A DNA stretch of 23,046 bases from a virus: the IMG/VR virus record IMGVR_UViG_3300022562_000189, positions 1 through 23,046 of that record; one strand, written 5' to 3'. The notes below the pieces were generated by a model. The model was not told the DNA's origin and did no database searches. It saw only the letters and a list, made by a program, of their open reading frames with translations. Shown one piece after another: positions 2,955 to 23,046 of this stretch; within the stretch, counting starts at the first letter, position 1; each line of letters opens with the position of its first letter. A program made the translations under genes and the position numbers.

Positions 2955-3352
2955 TTAATTACCTTCCAAAACCCTTCACAATTTCTGTTGGGTACTTTTA
3001 AAAATTTTTTACCAGTAGTAGTTATAAAATAACTTCTACCACCATAATTAATTCCCATAATTATTTCATCTTTGAAAAAATAAGCAACAAGATCTCCAGG
3101 AGATACATTCTCCCAATCTTGTCTTATAGGTTGTTTAGTTAATTTAGTTACCAACTCTTCTAAATCGTCACAATTATAAAGTTTTTTTATTACGTCAAAA
3201 GCTTCTTCTTTAGTGGAATATTTTCCTCTAAACTCTTTTGCATAATCTATACCTGTGGCCTCTAATACTACATTAGCAGAAAAAAGACAGCAATCATGTT
3301 GTCCCCAGTTAAATGGTAATTTTTCATATTTATCTAATAATTCTTTTATCAT
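2951..3352 (-). CDS. NlpC/P60-like tail-tip protein (DUF6950 type)
   Basis: This 133-residue protein has the N-terminal pattern LPFNWGQHDCCLFSAN (about residues 12-27), typical of the short DUF6950 / phage NlpC-P60 tail proteins, followed by FRGKYSTKEEA and a PGDLVAYF strand. In the wider NlpC/P60 family the equivalent Cys is the nucleophile of a peptidoglycan endopeptidase carried at the tail tip. The segment where a catalytic His is expected (IIMGINYGGRSYF) has none, so the enzyme may be inactive or purely structural. That caveat is mine, from reading the residues. The ATG overlaps the stop of the upstream gene by 4 bases, and its own stop overlaps the start of the fibre gene. The position between a DUF2163-like gene and a J-like gene matches GTA gp14 and lambda gpK. 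Confidence 0.75.
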   Translation of the reverse strand: MIKELLDKYEKLPFNWGQHDCCLFSANVVLEATGIDYAKEFRGKYSTKEEAFDVIKKLYNCDDLEELVTKLTKQPIRQDWENVSPGDLVAYFFKDEIIMGINYGGRSYFITTTGKKFLKVPNRNCEGFWKVIK

Positions 3353-4080
3353 CTTTGTATTCTAACTGCATTAGTTGAATCACTACCGCGAACACCACGA
3401 CCACCATTACCCGTATTAATGCTAGCACTAAAAGTGATTGCTTTTCCGCCCCAATTAATTTCTTTATCTTTCAACGAATCAACATACTCAAATCCGCGGT
3501 CTAGTCTGGTAAATCCTGTTAGTAAACCGGATCCATCATGTAAAAAAGCATAGTAGGCTTTTTGAGTATGGTGATTAAATTTACCACCACGAGGACGTTC
3601 CCAGTCTCTTAATCTAGAAATTACATCTACTGTAATAGTAGCTGTGTCTGACAAATTAACACTCATAGTATCCATATGTCCTACAAATAGAACTACGGGA
3701 CCTTGAGATTCTGTACCATCATGTAATACTGAATTATCAGTATCTAATGCGGCTAAATAAATATAAACAGGTTGATTTTTATAATCAGTATTTACTGAAT
3801 CTTGAATATAATCAGTAGGGATTCCTGATAAAGTTAATTGAATACCATATGACTGTATATCAGTACCTTCTTCAGCAGAATTAATAGCACCTAAATTTCC
3901 AACTCCTAAATATTCTTGATCCCCTGCACCGGCTTCATCCCACCATACAGATTGTCCAGAAGAATTTAATCTTAAAATAGTATTAGCAGAATCCTTAAAG
4001 AACATCTTTACTAATATTACTAATTTTGAATTATCGCCCTCTAACATATTTGCAAGAGCATTACTTAATCCTCTAGTCAT
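3349..4080 (-). CDS. Tail-tip hub protein, DUF2163 / GTA gp13-like position
   Basis: I place the start at 4080, so the protein begins MTRGLSNALAN (243 residues). That ATG shares its A with the TAA of the upstream gene (TAATG), the junction style used repeatedly here, whereas the six codons further upstream lie inside the neighbour. The protein is beta-rich. Its features include LVKMFFKDS near the N-terminus, a central GPVVLFVGHMDTM strand, then SRLRDWERPRGGKFNHHTQ and a late RGFEYVDSL. These suit the baseplate-hub family that follows the distal tail protein in GTA-like tail modules. Gene order (tape measure, distal tail-like, this, NlpC-like, J-like) is the main evidence. No catalytic motif is visible. 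Assignment to the specific Pfam family is tentative. Confidence 0.65.
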   Translation of the reverse strand: MTRGLSNALANMLEGDNSKLVILVKMFFKDSANTILRLNSSGQSVWWDEAGAGDQEYLGVGNLGAINSAEEGTDIQSYGIQLTLSGIPTDYIQDSVNTDYKNQPVYIYLAALDTDNSVLHDGTESQGPVVLFVGHMDTMSVNLSDTATITVDVISRLRDWERPRGGKFNHHTQKAYYAFLHDGSGLLTGFTRLDRGFEYVDSLKDKEINWGGKAITFSASINTGNGGRGVRGSDSTNAVRIQR

Positions 4081-4703: not shown

Positions 4704-7700
4704 TATCTTCTACCTGCCTTTTTAGCAAATGATCCGCCACGATTTAATTCCTGAGTTACAGCCGCAATTGTTTGTTTACGTAACTGCTCCATTTGTTGCC
4801 TTATACGTAATTCTGATTGAGGATTAGCCTCTCTAAAATCATAATTATTAGTAACATTAACGGAAGGACTTGGAGAATCCATACGAACAGGAACTTCTCT
4901 ATTATTTGCTAAAGGAATAACCGCCTCTGATTGACCTGCTTCTCCTATATTTACAACTGTATCTTTAGTAACTACTCCTCCCTGAGCCATTGTTGGTGCT
5001 CCATAATATGCACCGACAACTTGAACGGCTGCTTTAGCATATTTCATCCAATCTTCTCCACCCCCATCTCCTGCACTTGCACAACTACAAGCCGCCATTC
5101 TTTGTAATTCTTTATATATACCAGTTAAATGAGCATTTGTAGTTGTTTGCTTAGCTATCATACTTGCCATATAAGCTTTATTAGATTGACAACATAATAC
5201 TAAAGAATTTAAAGAACCTGCTGCAGAAGTTAAATATCTAACTTTTTCTAAATCTCTACCTTCTGCTGTTTGTAAATATGTAAACTCTCTTTCCGCTCTA
5301 GCTGCTGCTGCTTCTTTTTCTGCTTCAGTTAAAGCTCTATTTTTTACTGCTTCTTCTGTAGCTATTGCTTGTTCAGTTGCATTTCTTGCAGCTTCTTTAA
5401 TTATCTTTTCTTCTAAACTACGGAGAGCTTTTTCTTGCGTTGCTTCTCCTTTACCTTCTTTTCCAAAAAGACCAGCAAATAGATTTCTAGTAAGTCCTTG
5501 TAAATTCTTTTTTGCAACATCTCCAATAGCTGTTCTGGCTGTAGCTTTTACTGCCTCTACTATGTCTACATTGCCTTCTATTAAATCATCTACAATAGAA
5601 TCTGTAAATGAATCAGTAGTTTTTTGAATTATTTCTGCCCACTCTTCTGCTGCTGTTTTCATTCCCTTAGCAAAATTAAGAGCTTCATTTTCCATTATAG
5701 TATGTAAATCAGCCCCAAATTGTCTTAAATCTTTAGGAATTGGATTATAACGATCTCCACGAGCACGTACATCTAATAATCTTTGTTCTAACCCTAATCT
5801 TAATTGAGTTTCTCTTTTTTGTGCTTTAATAGCTTCTAATTGAGTTTCAAGAGCGGTTACTTCTGCCTGACTAAATATTTTTCTATCAAGTAATTCTTTT
5901 GCACGAGTTACTTCAATTTCTAATAGACGCTCGTCTAAATCTAATTTATAAAGTTCATAATCTAATATTTTTTTACCAATTTCAGCTTGTTTAACTAAAT
6001 TAATATAAGAATTTTTATCATATCCTAGCCCTTTAAGTTTTGCTTCAACTCTCTCTATCTCTAACCTATTTAACTTTTCCTCATAATCTAATCGTGTTCT
6101 TAAAACTCTTTGTTCTTTTTTAGAAAGAGCAAGATTATGTTCTGCTTCATTTACAGCCTGTCGTGCTACGTCTAGTTTTGCTAGTAAATACTCTTTCTCT
6201 TCTTCTTGGGCTGTGCCACCACGTACAATTGTCTTATAGGTAGTTTCTTGTGCTTGTAAATATTTTTTGGCAGCGCTTAATCTAAGTTCCGCAGATCTAA
6301 TATTTTCTTTTTCCGCAATACTTGTCATAGTAATTAAACTAGTATAGTCTGGAGCATACTTAGATAACTCTTCCATAGACTTAGAAGTTTCTTGTGCAAT
6401 TTTTGCTTGCATATCTAATAATTTTCCAGCAGCAGAAGCAAATAAATCTATTTGTTTATCTTTTAATACATTTAATAATTTTTGAACAGCTTCTCTTGCT
6501 GAATCAGAACTTTTTATAAGGCTTTCAATTTCGGATTTTGATAAATCAAATATAGCCTGTAATTGCTCATTGGTTTTACTTAAAATATCAGTATTTAAAA
6601 AGCGTAATAAACCATCTTCACTTAAAATACCTGCTGCATCAGATTGAATTAAGTTTTTAAAGTCTTTTATTAAACCACTAGTTGCTCTAGTTAATTCAGG
6701 ATTAATAGTTAAATTAGTTAATTCCTCTCTTAATTTTGCTGCAGCACCTACTGATCTAACAAACTGTTCATTAATTGAACTCATAGAACCAGTTATTGAT
6801 TGAACTTGTATTTCTAATTTTCTACTTGCAGTTAAAACATCATCTAATCCTAATTCTTTAGGATCTATTTTAATATTTTGATACTTTTTAAGAGCATCTC
6901 TAACAGCTTCTAAATCACCAGTCCCATCTCTAGCCGCTTTAATTAAATCATGAATCTCTTTACCTACACCATGTAAGTTAGAAGTAATTTCTGAAGTATT
7001 AATATTAAATCCTGCTAAAATTCCTGCTTGTCCTAATTGTTCAACACTCTCAATAGTAGCTAATACTCCTTGTAATCCAGGACTGTTAGTAACTAGGTCT
7101 CTAGTAATGATTTTTATTTCTCTGGTTAACGTTAACTTATCTAATTCTTCTTGTAGTTGAATTGCTTTAGTTTCTGCTTCAGATAAAGCTTCAGATCGTA
7201 CTTTAATATCTAATCCATCATCTTTAATTCCCCCAGGACCTAAACTAAGACCTAGTATTGTTCTGCTAGCAGTTTTTAATCTTTTTTCTAACTCATCTAT
7301 TTGAGTATCAAGATTTTCTGTGTCTAAGAACGGTTCAATTTTTGGGCCTACTAAAGGTGCTAAAAGACCTTCTAATCCACTAAAAAGAGTATTAGAAAAA
7401 TTAAGGAAAAAAGTACTTAAATTTGCTTGAGTTTTTCTACCTGAAAAAACCTCATTTTGTAGACGACGTAAATTAGCTAATTTCTTAACATTATCGTCAA
7501 GTATTGAATTGAATTCTTCATATCTTTCATTAGCCTCTTTTATACTTTTAGCATCTTCGTCTCTAGATTTTATAAACTTATCATAAAGAGATTTACCAAC
7601 TTCAAATATTAACCATAAAGTAGTTAAAATAGGTATTGTTTTATTAATAGCTGCAGCAAATAATCTAGTTGCTGTGGCAGCATATCCCGCTGCTCTAGCA

Positions 7701-9325: not shown

Positions 9326-10122
9326 TTATATCTCCTGAGAACTGGGGGCTCCGCTTTTTCTTCTTTTCTCTATATCTTGATAGAGAATGTGATCTATATA
9401 ATTAATTATATAAAGTACATATTTTTTATAGGTAGAAGTATTTACTTCATAAATAGAAAAGAGTGTATCTATCCCTTGCAAAGATTTGCCTAGATACACT
9501 CCACTTACTCCTGCCCATTCTTCTTTTAATGTTCTATGTATTATGACAGCAACTCGAGTTTCTTCTAGCAAACTATCTAATTCTATTGGAAATTCTTCTT
9601 CATTAGGTTCTGTACCTAACATACTACACATTTCCAAATAATCTTCGACTGTTACTCCGCCGGCTCCTTGGTTTTGGACGTATCCTTTGAGCTTTTCTTG
9701 TTCTGTTTCGAGCTGCTTTGCGTAAAATTTGCTAAATCAGTAGTTATATCAGAAACCCATCCATCAAATAAAGTTGAGTTTTTAATTAATGCTAAAGCAT
9801 TTTCGTGAGTATAACTAACTGTATCTTCAGCTTTTATTTCTGTTTGATCGTCCACTAGGACAAATTTAGGCAAGTACTTAAATTTTAAGCCTTTCCAGCC
9901 TTTTATTGTACTTCTAACGTACTCATCTAAGAATTTTTCTTCATCTAACTCTGGATATACTCTGCGAGTTCTATGATCTAGTTTTTGTTTGGTACATCTT
10001 TCTTGTAATTTACTTAATTCATCTTTTCCTAAAAAGGTCAATTCAATTTCAAATCCTGGGCAATCAGGAAATTCAACTGTAACTGTTTTTTCGGGTAAGA
10101 TTAAGCTTTTAAGATCTAACAT
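9326..10122 (-). CDS. Tail assembly chaperone fusion made by -1 frameshift (gpGT-like)
   Basis: The chaperone frame (from 10122) and a second frame that ends at 9326 meet at the slippery heptamer A AAT TTT on the minus strand (9730-9724). After decoding AAT TTT, a slip of one base back lets translation continue as YAKQLETEQEKLKGYVQNQG and on through TVEDYLEMCSML to the stop at 9326. The fusion has 265 residues: 133 shared and 132 new. The -1 frame has a TGA just upstream of the heptamer and is open from there, exactly as expected for a programmed shift. The new part has no convincing start of its own (only a TTG at 9637). Family knowledge: most long-tailed phages make a G/GT pair that coats the tape measure protein before tube assembly. 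The C-terminus covers the ribosome binding site of the tape measure gene. Confidence 0.8.
9652..10122 (-). CDS. Tail assembly chaperone, unshifted product (gpG-like)
   Basis: This 156-residue protein lies between tail tube and tape measure genes. Its features are VTVEFPDCPGFEIELTFLGKDELSK near the N-terminus and the chaperone-like VRSTIKGWKGLKFKYLPKF at about residues 71-89. Residues after the slippery site at codons 132-133 form a low-complexity polar tail (SSSKQNKKSSKDTSKTKEP), a plausible disordered end for the major, unshifted product. In the lambda system the short form is made in large excess over the fusion. Gene position and the GWKGL pattern make this a confident chaperone call. The exact Pfam family is not claimed. 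Confidence 0.85.
   Translation of the reverse strand: MLDLKSLILPEKTVTVEFPDCPGFEIELTFLGKDELSKLQERCTKQKLDHRTRRVYPELDEEKFLDEYVRSTIKGWKGLKFKYLPKFVLVDDQTEIKAEDTVSYTHENALALIKNSTLFDGWVSDITTDLANFTQSSSKQNKKSSKDTSKTKEPAE
9724..9730 (-). promoter_or_regulatory. Slippery heptamer AAATTTT for -1 ribosomal frameshift
   Basis: The heptamer reads A AAT TTT in the chaperone frame, so it has the X XXY YYZ form in which both tRNAs can re-pair after slipping to AAA TTT. The stop in the -1 frame (TGA) lies 8 bases before it, and the -1 frame is then open for 132 codons. I see no strong hairpin immediately downstream. A GC-rich GCCGGCGGAG stretch about 65 bases on is too far to be an obvious stimulator. Confidence 0.75.
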
Positions 10123-14976: not shown

Positions 14977-16392
14977 TTAAGATGAGAATACAAACTTAAC
15001 AACACCCTGACCCACGTCTAGATCCTTGAATCCAAAACGACGGGTTGCTACGTATCCACGCTTCTGGTTGAATACGTCAGTATCAGATTCTACTCGCATA
15101 CCACGTAGTTCACCCTTCAAGAAGTTTGTTGGGCGACATAGTACACCGAAAGAAGTACCCGCTACTGGGGTTTCGATATTTGTGTTATCAAACTGACGAG
15201 ATAGTACAACAGGCGTACCTGCGATTGCACCAATCTGGCCGGTTAGAACAGTAGCACGATCACCAATCTTATCCATTGTTAGGAAGGTAGTTGAGAAACT
15301 GGTTCCTAATAAGTGATAATATAAAGCTGGTGAAACAATCCAAACTAGATTGCTAGGATCATCTCCATATAGTCCTAAATTCTGACGAGCAGTAATAAAG
15401 TCATTATATGTTACAGATGCAACAGTGCTGCTAGAAGGAGAACTAATGCTAAAACTAACATCAGTTACAGAAGAACCTAGACCGGTTAGACCAGTAATAG
15501 GATCTGCTCCAGCTCCTGCACCGCGTAGTAGAGCTAGGTCAGCAGACTTAGCCATACGACGAGCCATAGCATCACGAATGATAGGTAGTAGGGCAACAAT
15601 GCTGTCCTCTTCCTCTTCGTAACCAATAAATTCTTTGGTTGCTAGCTTATATGCGGTGATTGTGTTTTCTTTCAACTGATGATCGACTGCGCTACCAGTA
15701 GAAGAAACTTCACCTGATCCAGGACTTTCCTGACCAGTCGCTAGACTAGAACGGAAGTTTGCATCAGGGATCCACTCTGCGTAACCTGCTTCTGGATTTA
15801 CAGGCATATGCATAGTAGGTGTGCTCATTGGGATAGTTGTAAATAGTGGCTCTACAATTAAATTCTCGCGCATTTCATTATGTACGCGTGTAGAGAACTC
15901 TTCTTCCCATCCAGATAGAGTACCAGACTCCCAGTGCTCACGTCCAGACTTCTGAACTAGGCGTTGGAAATACTTGGTTCCATCAATTGGCTTAGCGAAT
16001 AGCTTTGCCATAAATACTGCGTTATCTTTTTCTGCGTCGGTTAGGTTGTCCTCACCTGCATCAGAGGGATAATGCATCTTATTTTTTCTCATAGCAGACT
16101 GTAGCTCTTCTAGCTCACGCTGCTTCTCTTCTAATTCGGAAGCAAATTTTGTAGTTACTTCCTTAAGTGCGCCTTCCTTTTCTTCTTCTAGCTTGGCTTG
16201 TAGATCTTTCTTTACATCTTCTAATAGACGCTCTGCTGCGGTTTTAACCTCAATATCACGAGCCTCTTTAGCCTTGCGCTCTGCTTCTTTAGCAGCTTCA
16301 CGCTCCTCTAGAGCCTTCATTACTGTCTCGGCGACAGAAGAAGTCAAGGAACTAACATCAATTGAAGGAGTGCTCTTTTCACTCTTTTCCAT
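14977..16392 (-). CDS. Possible separate capsid product from an internal start
   Basis: Within the fusion, an ATG at 16392 (start of MEKSEKSTPSID) is preceded by GAGGAGA (16401-16407) with an 8-base spacer, as good a ribosome binding site as those of the separate genes here. It falls in the linker between the protease and the coiled-coil delta domain, so initiation there would give a 471-residue delta plus capsid protein free of protease. This would solve the stoichiometry problem of a fusion, much as lambda's nested C/Nu3 start makes extra scaffold. The site is seen in the sequence; its use is inference. Confidence 0.5.
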   Translation of the reverse strand: MEKSEKSTPSIDVSSLTSSVAETVMKALEEREAAKEAERKAKEARDIEVKTAAERLLEDVKKDLQAKLEEEKEGALKEVTTKFASELEEKQRELEELQSAMRKNKMHYPSDAGEDNLTDAEKDNAVFMAKLFAKPIDGTKYFQRLVQKSGREHWESGTLSGWEEEFSTRVHNEMRENLIVEPLFTTIPMSTPTMHMPVNPEAGYAEWIPDANFRSSLATGQESPGSGEVSSTGSAVDHQLKENTITAYKLATKEFIGYEEEEDSIVALLPIIRDAMARRMAKSADLALLRGAGAGADPITGLTGLGSSVTDVSFSISSPSSSTVASVTYNDFITARQNLGLYGDDPSNLVWIVSPALYYHLLGTSFSTTFLTMDKIGDRATVLTGQIGAIAGTPVVLSRQFDNTNIETPVAGTSFGVLCRPTNFLKGELRGMRVESDTDVFNQKRGYVATRRFGFKDLDVGQGVVKFVFSS

Positions 16393-16983
16393 TGGTTTAT
16401 TCTCCTCAATAGTTTCAGGGTTTTCTTTTTCGTCATTTATTAATGACTTCTTAAAAGCTTCAAATTCCCTTGGATTATCAAAACTTTTACTTACACTAAA
16501 TGTAGTATATGGGTTTGCAGGAACAGATACAACACTAACTTCGACTAGTTCGACATCTTTAATATTAAAAATATCTTCATCTGGGTCGTAGTCTAAGTCT
16601 TTCGCTATGAAGCCTACACTAAAGGCTTTAAGAATACCTTCCTGGATAAGGGAGTAGACTTCTGATGCTGACTTACTAATTTGCGCTTTAATGCTAAGTC
16701 CGTTATCAGTAGCGCGAACTTCCGTTGCTCTACCAATAGGCTTATCATGTCTATGATACGCTAGAATAATAGGATTAGCCTGATATGCTTTTAACGCATC
16801 GCGCTTCTTCCATGCTTTAGGATCAATGATATCTCTCATACGATCCATATCATTCGTACTCGCTGAACCTTCGATGATTAATGGGGAATCTTTATCTTCG
16901 GGGTCAACTTTCTTAAATGTAAGTGCAGTGTCGAAAGAAAAAACTTTTTGCTGAAGGTCGGGTTGATTACTCTTTATCTTCAT
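14977..16983 (-). CDS. Fused prohead protease and HK97-fold major capsid protein
   Basis: I start the 668-residue protein at ATG 16983, which has AAGGTG six bases upstream and overlaps the portal end by 17 bases. Earlier in-frame starts lie inside the portal gene. Residues 1-165 are an S78-type prohead protease with AYHRHDKPIGR (His near 77-79) and ILKAFSVGF (Ser 122), followed by ELVEVSVVSVPANP. Residues about 215-300 form a charged coiled coil like the HK97 delta/scaffold domain. From about residue 305 the sequence is the capsid shell protein (EPLFTTIPMSTPTMHMPV, then RGAGAGADPITGL, ending ATRRFGFKDLDVGQGVVKF). Family knowledge: the protease cleaves delta domains from the assembled shell. 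Fusions of this sort are known. An internal ribosome binding site may also give capsid protein without protease. Confidence 0.92.
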   Translation of the reverse strand: MKIKSNQPDLQQKVFSFDTALTFKKVDPEDKDSPLIIEGSASTNDMDRMRDIIDPKAWKKRDALKAYQANPIILAYHRHDKPIGRATEVRATDNGLSIKAQISKSASEVYSLIQEGILKAFSVGFIAKDLDYDPDEDIFNIKDVELVEVSVVSVPANPYTTFSVSKSFDNPREFEAFKKSLINDEKENPETIEENKPMEKSEKSTPSIDVSSLTSSVAETVMKALEEREAAKEAERKAKEARDIEVKTAAERLLEDVKKDLQAKLEEEKEGALKEVTTKFASELEEKQRELEELQSAMRKNKMHYPSDAGEDNLTDAEKDNAVFMAKLFAKPIDGTKYFQRLVQKSGREHWESGTLSGWEEEFSTRVHNEMRENLIVEPLFTTIPMSTPTMHMPVNPEAGYAEWIPDANFRSSLATGQESPGSGEVSSTGSAVDHQLKENTITAYKLATKEFIGYEEEEDSIVALLPIIRDAMARRMAKSADLALLRGAGAGADPITGLTGLGSSVTDVSFSISSPSSSTVASVTYNDFITARQNLGLYGDDPSNLVWIVSPALYYHLLGTSFSTTFLTMDKIGDRATVLTGQIGAIAGTPVVLSRQFDNTNIETPVAGTSFGVLCRPTNFLKGELRGMRVESDTDVFNQKRGYVATRRFGFKDLDVGQGVVKFVFSS

Positions 16984-18244
16984 TTTCACCTTGTACCTCT
17001 GGTTTAGGTTTTTCCTCGTCACCTGAATCATCCGAAGATGATCCGGATGGTCTACCTCCCTGACTTGGATCCACTGCAGATCCTGCAATGTTAGCAGGTA
17101 TTCTTAACTCGTCTGCGTGTTCGTCAGGTGCTGGATCCATTCTCAATTGGTCTCTAGCTTCATTGATAGTAATGATTCCAGTATTTACCAGACTGGTTAG
17201 TTGCGTTGTTTGATCCCTGATTTCAGGGGCTAACGCTGCTACACCAACCGTATCCGGCTTCATATCATACGCGAAGTAAGCCTCCACGGCTGCTACGAAT
17301 TTGTTCATTAGAGGTAGAACGGTTGTTAAATAAAATAACTTTAAGTTAGGGGTAAGGTTAGCATTATTTCCGGAATTTAGTAGAATAGGGGGAACGCCTA
17401 ATGCTTTTAGTATTTTGGTTTCATGACCATCTACTGAAGTCTCGAAATCTAGCTCACGCCACCTAATCTCAGATAGGGGATTAACCTTAAAATCTCCATC
17501 AAGAATAAGTGGACGACGTGCCCCTGCTTTTGGACTGTAAGAACGTCTCCAATTTTCTAAAATCCTTTGTTTAATTTTTGCATTTAGAATATTAGGAGTT
17601 GTTAATACCAATCCTGGAACTGCACCATTTTCAAAGAATAAGTCTTGAAAGTTTAACATCAAGTCTAATGTATTAATACTTCTTTGTGCACAGTACAGTC
17701 TAGAAACACCTTGATATATACTATCTGCGGCGTTTTCTTTAATATGAATAATCTCGTCTGTTCCAAACTTAGTTGTGGAATCATAAGTATAACCTTCAAC
17801 ACGTTTCTTTTTACCAACTTTAATTTCCATTAGGTGGGCTGGTAATTGAAATAACTCGTTTCCATCAAAGTATAAAAACGCGTTTCCATTTATAATTAGA
17901 TCCATAAACACTTCGCGACGAAATTGGTTTTGATCTACCTCAGAATTTGCCTGAAAGTTAAGTAGTGTTTCTACTTTTTTCTTTCGTACCATCTGAGGAT
18001 TTTTACTGTTAGGATTCAAAAACTTCGAATCAGTTGGAAGAGGATCCATAACAGATACGTTAATCTCTGCGGCGGAGTCTACTAGTAAATCAGTTCCTCT
18101 ACGAATTACTTCTAAACGATCATACGCTCTTTTAAAGTACATATCGCGACGAGTTGCATCTTTAGTATCGCCTTCGTCATAGTGAATCGCAGTTTGTCCA
18201 CGATTCATTTTGACATTCCACCACCAGTCTCTAATTGCTCCCAT
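16967..18244 (-). CDS. Portal protein (HK97 family)
   Basis: This 425-residue protein shows the HK97-type portal layout. An N-terminal stretch has YFKRAYDRLEVIRRGTDLL, then INGNAFLYFDGNELFQLPAH (about residues 116-135), DEIIHIKENAADSIYQGVSRL, then the stem region with FENGAVPGLVLTTPN, and a late NTGIITINEARDQLRMDP. The C-terminal 50 residues are acidic and Ser/Gly/Pro-rich. Portals form the 12-subunit ring through which DNA enters. The gene overlaps the end of the HNH gene by 14 bases and the start of the protease-capsid gene by 17 bases. Confidence 0.92.
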   Translation of the reverse strand: MGAIRDWWWNVKMNRGQTAIHYDEGDTKDATRRDMYFKRAYDRLEVIRRGTDLLVDSAAEINVSVMDPLPTDSKFLNPNSKNPQMVRKKKVETLLNFQANSEVDQNQFRREVFMDLIINGNAFLYFDGNELFQLPAHLMEIKVGKKKRVEGYTYDSTTKFGTDEIIHIKENAADSIYQGVSRLYCAQRSINTLDLMLNFQDLFFENGAVPGLVLTTPNILNAKIKQRILENWRRSYSPKAGARRPLILDGDFKVNPLSEIRWRELDFETSVDGHETKILKALGVPPILLNSGNNANLTPNLKLFYLTTVLPLMNKFVAAVEAYFAYDMKPDTVGVAALAPEIRDQTTQLTSLVNTGIITINEARDQLRMDPAPDEHADELRIPANIAGSAVDPSQGGRPSGSSSDDSGDEEKPKPEVQGENEDKE

Positions 18245-21633: not shown

Positions 21634-21692
21634 GGTCCGAAAACTAGGGGTGTCAAGAGGTCTGAAAACCGCCCGAGGTCTGAAAACCGCCC
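21634..21692 (+). repeat. Two tandem 18-bp repeats plus one diverged copy
   Basis: GAGGTCTGAAAACCGCCC occurs twice back to back (21657-21674 and 21675-21692). A third partial copy, GGTCCGAAAAC, lies at 21634-21644. They sit directly upstream of the sigma54-like promoter and between the divergent transcription units, so they are likely binding sites for an activator or repressor. Confidence 0.8.
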
Positions 21693-21830: not shown

Positions 21831-22064
21831 ATGACGCAGCGAATTGCAATCTACCGGAACGGCGAACGGATTAAATATTTTCAAGGTGCTGACAAGGCCA
21901 TGAATAAGGCGATCCGCGAACTGGAAAAAACCTTCGATCAGATCGGGGCTGACAGCGAAGGTGATATGCTCGAACTGGATGGCGATCTGGGCACGGTTTA
22001 TATGTCGGAATATTCACACAATGCCGACACCTACGAGATCCACGCTTGGAGGCTCTGGAAATGA
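21831..22064 (+). CDS. Small protein of unknown function, first gene of a plus-strand operon
   Basis: This 77-residue protein starts MTQRIAIYRNGERIKYF. GAGGACACGAAAC precedes the ATG, and AGAGGCAAAGAC lies further upstream. It is acidic and mixed alpha/beta, with a helix at about residues 20-38 (KAMNKAIRELEKTFDQI) and a C-terminal EYSHNADTYEIHAWRLW. Codons are much more GC-rich at the third position than in the minus-strand tail genes, so the coding strand and origin differ. The stop overlaps the next start (ATGA), showing an operon. Divergent orientation from the late block suggests an early or regulatory gene. I do not recognise it. Confidence 0.75.
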   Translation: MTQRIAIYRNGERIKYFQGADKAMNKAIRELEKTFDQIGADSEGDMLELDGDLGTVYMSEYSHNADTYEIHAWRLWK

Positions 22065-22219
22065 CATTCCTGACATGGTTTCTTTTGGCGGTCATCATTC
22101 TCTCTGGCGTTGCTTCGGTCTGGGCGATCTGCGCACCTTCCGACGACGAACTGCTCCAAGGTAAAGACAAGGTGATTGATTTAACTCGTGCCCTCTCCCG
22201 GCGTCCCCATAACAACTAG
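22061..22219 (+). CDS. Small single-pass membrane protein
   Basis: A 52-residue ORF begins in the ATGA overlap with the preceding gene and ends just before a terminator. Residues 3-25 are strongly hydrophobic (FLTWFLLAVIILSGVASVWA), a clear membrane segment. They are followed by a short polar tail with acidic then basic residues (PSDDELLQGKDKVIDLTRAL, then SRRPHNN). No lipobox or catalytic motif is seen. Phage proteins of this shape include holin-like, superinfection-exclusion and inhibitor proteins, but nothing here chooses between them. The start overlap and terminator make it a real gene. Confidence 0.7.
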   Translation: MTFLTWFLLAVIILSGVASVWAICAPSDDELLQGKDKVIDLTRALSRRPHNN

Positions 22220-22229
22220 CCGCCGGACA

Positions 22230-22294
22230 GAGCCCGCCTGGCAGGCCACCTAAAACAGACTGAGATCGGTGGCGGGAGAGGCGGGCTCTCTTTT
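22230..22294 (+). terminator. Two-tier rho-independent terminator
   Basis: The outer 10-bp stem is GAGCCCGCCT / AGGCGGGCTC. The inner 6-bp stem is GCCACC / GGTGGC with a 17-base loop, separated by 5-base internal loops. TCTTTTG follows. It starts 11 bases after the stop of the 52-residue gene. GCCTG-G-CAGGC within the 5' arm can form a competing hairpin. Confidence 0.82.
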
Positions 22295-22300
22295 GCCCAG

Positions 22301-22324
22301 GTATATTAGATTCTTCTAATATAC
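22301..22324. promoter_or_regulatory. Dyad GTATATTAGA-N4-TCTAATATAC, copy 1 of ATTAGA-N4-TCTAAT
   Basis: A perfect 10-bp inverted repeat with 4-base spacer. The core ATTAGA-N4-TCTAAT recurs at 22541-22556 and 22729-22744 with different spacer bases, which is how operators for a dimeric repressor behave. Confidence 0.7.
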
Positions 22325-22367
22325 TGCGCCGACGGCGAAATGAGACGCATTCTCACTTAGATTTACA

Positions 22368-22399
22368 TTTACATGACAGCGCTGTCATGGCATGATAAT
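22368..22399 (+). promoter_or_regulatory. Long-spacer promoter candidate with central palindrome
   Basis: TTTACA (22368-22373) and GATAAT (22394-22399) are 20 bases apart, with the perfect 18-bp palindrome CATGACAGCGCTGTCATG (22372-22389) between them. That layout is typical of MerR-type promoters. The palindrome itself, with a central CG, also fits LacI-family operators. Confidence 0.4.
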
Positions 22400-22419
22400 T
22401 GCACTTGCTTCCTAACGTG

Positions 22420-22488
22420 TTGATTTATAAGGAATTATTATGGCGCACAAAATGTATTATGTTAAATCGCTAGGTCCTTATAAATCAA
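22420..22488 (+). promoter_or_regulatory. 14-bp inverted repeat sequestering a ribosome binding site
   Basis: TTGATTTATAAGGA (22420-22433) pairs perfectly with TCCTTATAAATCAA (22475-22488). AAGGA within the 5' arm is the ribosome binding site, six bases before the ATG at 22440 of an 18-codon ORF, and the 3' arm lies near the end of that ORF. In RNA this would shut the ORF unless ribosomes or a factor open it. Confidence 0.55.
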
Positions 22489-22496
22489 TAACTTAG
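22440..22496 (+). CDS. Candidate 18-residue leader peptide
   Basis: The ORF reads MAHKMYYVKSLGPYKSIT and stops with TAG. It has AAGGA six bases upstream and is enclosed by the inverted repeat at 22420-22488. It is too short for composition evidence. A leader-peptide or attenuation role is more likely than an independent protein, and it may not be translated at all. It contains the 12-mer ATTATGTTAAAT, which recurs at 22531-22542. Confidence 0.35.
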   Translation: MAHKMYYVKSLGPYKSIT

Positions 22497-22501
22497 CTAC
22501 T

Positions 22502-22517
22502 ATGACAGCGCTGTCAT
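22502..22517. promoter_or_regulatory. Second copy of the ATGACAGCGCTGTCAT palindrome
   Basis: This perfect 16-bp palindrome is identical to the core of that at 22373-22388, 129 bases away, and is followed by GCGTATAAAAGG. Two identical sites flanking a short leader ORF suggest looping or joint repression. Confidence 0.75.
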
Positions 22518-22540
22518 GCGTATAAAAGGCATTATGTTAA

Positions 22541-22556
22541 ATTAGATTTATCTAAT
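22541..22556. promoter_or_regulatory. Dyad ATTAGA-N4-TCTAAT, copy 2
   Basis: Perfect 6-bp half-sites with a TTTA spacer. The inner bases (T..A) extend the symmetry to 7 bp each side. It is followed by ATAT, as are the other copies. A 12-mer ATTATGTTAAAT directly precedes it and is also found at 22456. Confidence 0.7.
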
Positions 22557-22560
22557 ATGT

Positions 22561-22596
22561 CCTATCATATTCTGGCCTCGTTGTCAATACGTATTT
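22561..22596 (-). promoter_or_regulatory. Second TTGACA-N12-TATGATAGG module
   Basis: On the minus strand TTGACA (22582-22587) is followed after exactly 12 bases by TATGATAGG (22561-22569), as in the module at 21728-21754. The 10-bp palindrome AATACGTATT (22587-22596) abuts the TTGACA. Conservation of both blocks and spacing with unrelated spacer sequence suggests a functional promoter class. Confidence 0.4.
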
Positions 22597-22610
22597 TCCC
22601 TTATATCTTT

Positions 22611-22633
22611 GTTGCATTGCAACATGATATAAT
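22611..22633 (+). promoter_or_regulatory. Extended -10 promoter with upstream dyad
   Basis: TGATATAAT (22625-22633) is a perfect extended -10 element. No good -35 is present at the usual distance. The small dyad GTTGC-ATT-GCAAC (22611-22623) ends just before it and could be an operator. Transcription would start near the DnaA boxes and run through the 22-codon ORF and the hairpin cluster. Confidence 0.5.
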
Positions 22634-22640
22634 CAGGGCT

Positions 22641-22660
22641 TGTGGATAACCTGTGGATAG
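22641..22660. other. Two adjacent DnaA boxes, possible replication origin
   Basis: TGTGGATAA (reverse of TTATCCACA, the consensus box) at 22641-22649 and TGTGGATAG (one change) at 22652-22660 lie in the same orientation 11 bp apart, on one face of the helix. AT-rich DNA lies on the 5' side. Confidence 0.5.
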
Positions 22661-22664
22661 AATA

Positions 22665-22733
22665 ATGGAAATGATAATCTTTCTCGTTTGCATTTACTGC
22701 CTGCTAGGCGCATTTTGGGATCTTCTAAATTAG
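22665..22733 (+). CDS. Candidate 22-residue hydrophobic peptide
   Basis: The ORF reads MEMIIFLVCIYCLLGAFWDL then LN and stop. It is almost entirely hydrophobic, with two Cys. It begins 32 bases after the extended -10 promoter, and GGATAG upstream is a weak binding site. Its stop codon lies within the ATTAGA dyad at 22729. Small hydrophobic peptides of this kind include type I toxins and leader peptides. The evidence for translation is thin. Confidence 0.3.
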   Translation: MEMIIFLVCIYCLLGAFWDLLN

Positions 22734-22744
22734 AGGATTCTAAT
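22729..22744. promoter_or_regulatory. Dyad ATTAGA-N4-TCTAAT, copy 3
   Basis: Perfect half-sites with a GGAT spacer. It overlaps the end of the 22-codon ORF and borders the hairpin cluster at 22749-22882. TCTAATATA follows, as in copy 1. Confidence 0.7.
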
Positions 22745-22748
22745 ATAA

Positions 22749-22883
22749 CCTGGGGGCCAGGCTGCATTAGCTAACGCTAATGTAGCTTGCCCTAATGTAG
22801 GGCATCCTGATGTTGCGGTGCAGCATCGGGAATGGAACGGATCGCCGCGCGATGAAATCGCGCCTAGTTAGCTACCGCAGGGT
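22749..22883 (-). ncRNA. Compact multi-hairpin RNA, probably minus strand
   Basis: In 130 bases there are five hairpins: CCTGG-GGG-CCAGG (22749-22761), an 11-bp stem at 22761-22786, GCCCTA-ATG-TAGGGC (22789-22803), an 8 to 11-bp stem at 22806-22830, and GCGCGAT-GAA-ATCGCGC (22847-22863). The ends also pair: 22867-22880 with 22762-22775, in minus-strand RNA a 14-bp helix with one G-U pair and one G-A mismatch, which would close the others into a multi-branch. A consensus promoter upstream would start the RNA within a few bases of that helix. Two local stems carry G-U pairs only in the plus strand, so a plus-strand RNA is also possible. Confidence 0.5.
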
Positions 22884-22889
22884 TTTTAA

Positions 22890-22919
22890 ATTATACCATG
22901 TAACATGACGCAATGTCAA
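22890..22919 (-). promoter_or_regulatory. Consensus sigma70 promoter facing the hairpin cluster
   Basis: On the minus strand TTGACA, 18 bases, TATAAT: both hexamers are perfect, with TGG giving an extended -10. The expected start is about 22883. The -35 touches the dyad at 22919-22936. Confidence 0.8.
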
Positions 22920-22936
22920 TTAGACTTTGGTCTAAT
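22919..22936. promoter_or_regulatory. Dyad ATTAGAC-N4-GTCTAAT between divergent transcripts
   Basis: Perfect 7-bp half-sites with a TTTG spacer, related to the imperfect dyad at 21754-21771. Both are preceded by TGTCA and lie upstream of plus-strand genes with similar leaders. It abuts the -35 of the minus-strand promoter, so one protein could control both directions. Confidence 0.65.
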
Positions 22937-22999
22937 ATGAAAAAAAATTTTTCTTTGCTATTCTATCTTCGTTCCTAGAAAAAACCTGAGGGTAAAGAC

Positions 23000-23046
23000 A
23001 TGGCAAAAGGATGCAAGAAAAAGGACCGGAACCGTAGCAGAATTTC
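23000..23046 (+). CDS. Start of a plus-strand gene, cut by the window end
   Basis: The ATG at 23000 is preceded by TGAGGG with a 7-base spacer and opens a basic N-terminus, MAKGCKKKDRNRSRI, with no stop before the window ends. The leader TGAGGGTAAAGAC resembles TGAGAGGCAAAGAC in front of the 77-residue gene at 21831, and both genes follow an ATTAGAC dyad. Too little is visible to name it. Confidence 0.6.
   Translation, partial: MAKGCKKKDRNRSRI

Follow-up and report, generated by a model that had tools for sequence, protein, structure and literature searches.

The window analysed here is a linear IMG/VR virus fragment of 23,046 bases, extending 160 bases rightward beyond the segment under study (22611-22883). 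Its left 21.5 kb constitute a leftward module encoding tail, tape measure, major tail protein, portal, and large and small terminase, together with a single 703-aa frame (14977-17088) that matches both the head maturation protease and the major head protein families, in a fusion-like arrangement. The large terminase shares 46% identity with its counterparts in T5-type phages across 99% of its length, and the small terminase corresponds to PHROG 3802. At the DNA level, comparison of the window with named phages returned chance-level matches only. Judged by its sequence, the window represents part of the genome of a distant T5-like phage. Beyond the leftward module, two small genes read rightward (21831-22064 and about 22046-22219) and are succeeded by a Rho-independent terminator-like hairpin (22229-22295) that our terminator scan had missed; a search of IMG/VR gave no relative of the 77-aa neighbour gene. 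Two tandem copies of GAGGTCTGAAAACCGCCC (21657-21692) and a partial third copy (21634) sit between the small terminase and the first rightward gene, in a style akin to the GTGCAAATCCGACA repeats of T5. The next rightward frame begins at 23000, and the stretch from 22300 to 22995 is mainly non-coding. No initiator gene was found in the part of the early region present in the window.

Features of the non-coding stretch are summarized in Table 1. The sequence-only reading had described tandem DnaA boxes just after an extended -10 element reading rightward. Both are present, and the tandem pair exceeds chance (1 observed vs 0 expected from dinucleotide shuffles); a good -35 is absent at 17 bp from the -10. 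Two dif-like sites, which that reading missed, lie 100-200 bases farther left. Perfect XerD arms number 2 in the window vs 0.08 expected. The first site is flanked by an inverted repeat (22412-22433/22475-22496) and has an imperfect XerC arm, and the form of the second, TGCGTATAA-N6-TTATGTTAAAT, occurs in no fewer than 120 genome stretches, the majority of them proteobacterial. At the thresholds used, pattern matches to Fur and dif in the 23 kb are confined to 22339-22688, and the DnaA pair falls within the same 350 bases. No LexA box was found in the window within 5 mismatches. These matches were scored against general consensus sequences, from which the preferences of the host's own proteins may differ; the exact dif site of the window is absent from the bacterial genomes searched and so points to no host.

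Table 1. Positions of sites and predicted elements in the control region of the window
Feature	Position	Strand	Remarks
Palindrome GTATATTAGATTCTTCTAATATAC	22301-22324		First of four TTAGA/TCTAA operator-like sites
Fur-like box AATGAGACGCATTCTCACT	22339-22357		Weak; 3 mismatches to 19-bp palindromic consensus
Perfect palindrome CATGACAGCGCTGTCATG	22372-22389		Copy 1 of 2
dif-like site 1	22440-22467	+	Perfect XerD arm TTATGTTAAAT; 2 mismatches to relaxed dif consensus
Palindrome ATGACAGCGCTGTCAT	22502-22517		Copy 2 of CATGACAGCGCTGTCATG type
dif-like site 2	22515-22542	+	CATGCGTATAA-AAGGCA-TTATGTTAAAT; 0 mismatches to relaxed dif consensus
TTAGA/TCTAA palindrome 2	22541-22556		Operator-like
Motif TTGTCAATACGTATTTTCCCTTAT	22581-22604	+	Conserved in relatives, 22/24 in L008
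Palindrome TGTTGCATTGCAACA	22610-22624		Upstream of rightward -10
Extended -10 of rightward promoter	22625-22633	+	TGATATAAT; predicted start about 22640
Tandem DnaA boxes	22641-22660	-	TGTGGATAA, perfect (22641-22649), and TGTGGATAG, 8/9 (22652-22660); 11 bp apart; at predicted rightward start
Tiny hydrophobic frame of at most 26 aa	22653-22733	+	Putative
Fur-like box AATGATAATCTTTCTCGTT	22670-22688		2 mismatches; resembles T5 array unit
TTAGA/TCTAA palindrome 3	22729-22744		Operator-like
Predicted leftward structured RNA	22740-22883	-	Closing helix, internal hairpins, end hairpin 22759-22747; 3' end guessed
Perfect leftward promoter TTGACA-N18-TATAAT	22890-22919	-	TG precedes -10
TTAGA/TCTAA palindrome 4	22919-22936		Abuts leftward -35

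The perfect leftward promoter reported previously was recovered and lies beyond chance (1 observed vs 0.055 expected over the whole window). Its predicted start, near 22883, is three bases ahead of the closing helix of a hairpin cluster at 22749-22882. Folding of both strands bore out the earlier description of a 130-base multi-hairpin cluster with pairing ends: a 156-nt fold reached -69.3 kcal/mol (z -5.5) on the + strand, while the - strand gave -58.2 kcal/mol (z -4.5). Among 328 + strand stretches tiling the window, none had a lower energy than the + strand fold, although several others were comparable in z. The ends pair on both strands; the leftward strand forms the longer closing helix (22880-22867 with 22775-22762), and the opposite (+) strand folds better overall. 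A CCTGG-CCC-CCAGG hairpin with TTATATT behind it might terminate the leftward RNA near 22740. On these predicted folds, the closing helix and end hairpin likely mark out a discrete small RNA, about 130-150 nt long. Scans for homologues of the cluster returned chance matches only with 14-mers and one match, within a coding gene, with 20-mers, and thus no relative that could inform covariation.

Several further sites in the stretch look like targets of phage regulators. The TTAGA/TCTAA palindromes, the CATGACAGCGCTGTCATG-type pair, TGTTGCATTGCAACA and GTCAATACGTATTT, a motif conserved in the phage family, are most simply regarded as operators, and TTGTCAATACGTATTTTCCCTTAT is a probable phage operator or promoter element. 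A palindrome close to TGTCAATANGTATATNTACCTATTGACA occurs in the window (22581) and recurs in other contigs (L008 at 2001; L267 at 10442 and 12586; L268 at 1133; L005 at 1781 and 2970; L016 at 1486 and 3863); it is probably the operator of a phage regulator. In a set of 321 genomes, 15 contained TGTTGCATTGCAACA, at 16 sites in all vs 0 for the control. ATGACAGCGCTGTCAT was rejected as a common host site, being absent from the 321 genomes.

We compared this stretch with corresponding regions of related contigs. The closest of these (terminase 84-86%) stop short of the control region. In L006 and L009, with terminases 63-65% identical, TGTGGATAACC iterons spaced 11-12 bp apart lie in the gap that separates the small terminase side from the opposing small genes, with five perfect copies in L009, and two perfect and two one-mismatch copies in L006. 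Since DnaA arrays recur in relatives, the DnaA boxes of the window are not a chance occurrence. Fur boxes were found in L006, L008, L009, L010 and L016, with strong hairpins alongside; boxes in the relatives, as in T5, include strong matches. The hairpins of L008 at 36-290, 631-860 and 1961-2100 are extremely stable (z down to -12) and contain Fur-like cores between GGACACCCTCG arms. Two GTTTCA-N2-TGAAAC palindromes in L009 (39-90) resemble parS, and one of them fills a promoter spacer (TTGACTG...GATATAAT). The parS reading was set aside, as an operator is more likely at that position and parS was unenriched near DnaA arrays. In G015, dmp-like and A2/D3-like genes lie just past the gap region. 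The T5 transfer protein A1 (PHROG 1745) was absent from 13 relative contigs, all of them fragments, with T5 serving as the positive control, and a single-sequence search with T5 A1 likewise gave no match.

Entry of T5 DNA halts after the first 8-9%, which is still poorly understood (PMC13250531, 2026). According to the same paper, the stop signal is rich in direct and inverted repeats, palindromes and DnaA boxes, which may form structures or bind host components (PMC13250531). Within the annotated injection stop signal of T5 (AY543070, 9140-10149), we found a LexA box (9409-9428, 19/20), a Fur-box array (9552-9715) and DnaA boxes at 9437, 9449, 9498 and 9510, one perfect and three with one mismatch. 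At the thresholds used, matches to LexA, Fur and perfect DnaA boxes in the whole T5 genome occur only at 9409-9715 and 6098-6230, plus Fur at 231, all within the terminal repeat. Sites for CRP, ArgR, PurR, MetJ and Ter failed to cluster in the stop signal. DnaA and LexA boxes also lie beside the A2/A1 genes of Vibrio phages Cody and D232, Proteus phage PM135 and a Klebsiella phage. Across five complete Demerecviridae, every LexA site (at most 3 mismatches) is pre-early, the reversed control giving none, as are 26 of the 28 perfect DnaA boxes. Clusters of LexA, DnaA and in part Fur sites were observed at 6098-6230 and 9409-9715 in T5, 508-605 and 3245-3411 in NC_055849, 92449-97028 in NC_042090, 103257-107128 in OZ196701, and 100425-103977 in PP848850. 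Comparable clusters are thus conserved in T5-like phages, for which the presence of host-protein site clusters is well supported; that the sites clustered in the window form such a cluster is moderately supported.

A similar association was seen beyond these phages. Among the matches listed, 74 independent viral loci carry at least 3 DnaA boxes at 11-bp spacing. A Fur box lies within 200 bp of the array at 5 of these 74 loci (one of these, L163, is identical with contig L009), whereas the 459 kb lying farther off at the same loci contain none. Over the same distance, LexA was found at 3 loci vs 0.12 expected and dif at 2 vs none farther off, and scrambled Fur motifs gave nothing near the arrays; the probabilities of these enrichments are rough, the loci being drawn from the matches listed and the motifs having been picked after viewing the phage family of the window. 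In unrelated contigs, namely L165 with many near relatives (L146, L167, L168) and L150, DnaA-box arrays are accompanied by a perfect dif about 60-120 bp beyond.

Taken together, these findings lead us to favor, tentatively and at somewhat less than even confidence, the view that the segment is an early control or entry region that docks host DNA-binding proteins and also carries phage operators and a leftward non-coding RNA. On this view, the DnaA boxes most plausibly belong to a group of host-chromosome protein sites that T5-like genomes carry at their early end. Under this proposal, a mainly non-coding control region of ~650 bases (22300-22950), flanked by the leftward terminase module on one side and the rightward early genes on the other, would present sites for DnaA, XerCD and probably Fur, clustered with phage operators, that would be bound once the DNA is in the cell. 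As the rightward promoter is predicted to start at the DnaA pair, bound DnaA would hinder it, and the strong leftward promoter would yield an antisense structured RNA. In DNA entry and early transcription, the bound proteins might serve as a block, an anchor or a timing switch, a role also supposed for the T5 stop signal; an entry block, titration and promoter control are all conceivable roles. Against this proposal, the window contains only two DnaA boxes, its Fur-like boxes are weak and it has no LexA box, and the A1 gene was not found in the relative contigs. Furthermore, an array bound on DNA that is already internal does not by itself account for an injection stop, and several palindromes of the window appear to resemble phage operators.

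This last point is central to a rival explanation, which we consider possible but unlikely: an ordinary early control region in which the palindromes are operators for the phage's own repressor or activator that time its promoters, with the DnaA, dif and Fur-like sites incidental or serving for tuning. The repetition of the TGTCAATANGTATATNTACCTATTGACA-like motif in this and related phages, the four TTAGA/TCTAA palindromes, one of which abuts a perfect -35, and the L009 palindrome that occupies a promoter spacer are consistent with this explanation. It nevertheless leaves the dif sites unexplained, as well as the joint occurrence of LexA, DnaA and Fur sites, restricted to the pre-early region, in five T5-like genomes.

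The sequence-only reading had instead proposed an origin-like segment, in which a leftward antisense RNA would limit a rightward primer or initiator RNA at a DnaA-dependent origin, as in ColE1-type plasmids. The DnaA anatomy on which it was built holds, with 4-5 iterons in relatives; the promoters converge, and the predicted antisense start falls inside the rightward RNA. Cumulative GC skew, suggested there as a check, indeed has its minimum near 21-22 kb, but this coincides with the switch in gene direction and is therefore no independent sign of an origin. The suggested likeness to RNA I/II was not supported: no Rfam family, RNAI included, matched at the gathering score, in agreement with the earlier statement that no sequence match to ColE1 was seen, and the RNAI covariance model gave no match at E values up to 10. 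Given also that the comparable DnaA boxes of T5-like phages are accompanied, in the pre-early/injection-stop region, by sites for LexA and Fur and not by an initiator gene, of which the early-region part present here has none, we regard an origin as doubtful. We are similarly skeptical that the region serves as a sponge, with hundreds of replicated genomes titrating DnaA, Fur, LexA or XerCD, thereby halting host replication or shifting host expression. Clustered sites for several unrelated host regulators do recur in independent viruses, as a sponge would have it, but the sites per genome are few, and those of T5 lie in the first-entering repeat, where copy number would presumably be lowest when the early genes act. 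Finally, use of the dif-like sites as XerCD substrates, for resolving multimers or concatemers or for integration at the host dif, is very improbable despite their direct orientation, their perfect XerD arms and the perfect dif near DnaA arrays in viral contigs L150 and L165, as the two sites are just 75 bp apart in that orientation, the XerC arm of site 1 is imperfect, dif is absent from T5 and other relatives, and headful or repeat packaging would not need it.

A broader proposal is that several tailed-phage lineages build composite DnaA/LexA/Fur/XerCD docking arrays in early-entering DNA, where binding makes a T5-type stop or times early transcription. We consider this speculative and rather unlikely as a general statement. 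Repeats, palindromes and DnaA boxes were already known features of the T5 stop signal; the joint confinement of sites for LexA, DnaA and Fur to the pre-early regions of five genomes, and the presence of dif with DnaA in a distant relative, supply named host proteins to test. We found no paper describing this joint clustering in a search covering few subscription journals, and priority is not established.

Like ColE1 RNA I/RNA II, the region has converging promoters and a predicted short multi-hairpin antisense RNA that starts inside the opposing transcript; unlike them, it has no sequence or Rfam match and no known primer function, and it lies in a phage control region. With DnaA-dependent origins it shares a DnaA-box array, of two boxes in the window and about five iterons in L006 and L009. 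DnaA boxes clustered outside an origin are likewise found at datA and other DnaA titration loci, but those of the window are on phage DNA and mixed with sites for other proteins. The dif-like sites have the XerC arm, 6-bp centre and XerD arm of chromosomal dif in order, and site 2 fits the proteobacterial consensus; they differ in being present as two closely spaced copies off the chromosome. Relative to the T5 stop signal, the window has two dif-like sites, fewer DnaA boxes and no LexA box, and A1, encoded near the T5 signal, was not found in its relatives. Since it also lacks a demonstrated terminal repeat, the window should not be called a T5 injection stop signal. In both phages the leftward terminase genes give way, at a comparable turn, to small genes reading rightward, after which T5 has its terminal repeat. 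The two regions are alike in being non-coding and rich in palindromes and hairpins, in having DnaA boxes spaced 11-12 bp apart and Fur-like boxes, weak ones in the window, and in lying near the terminase end and the early genes.
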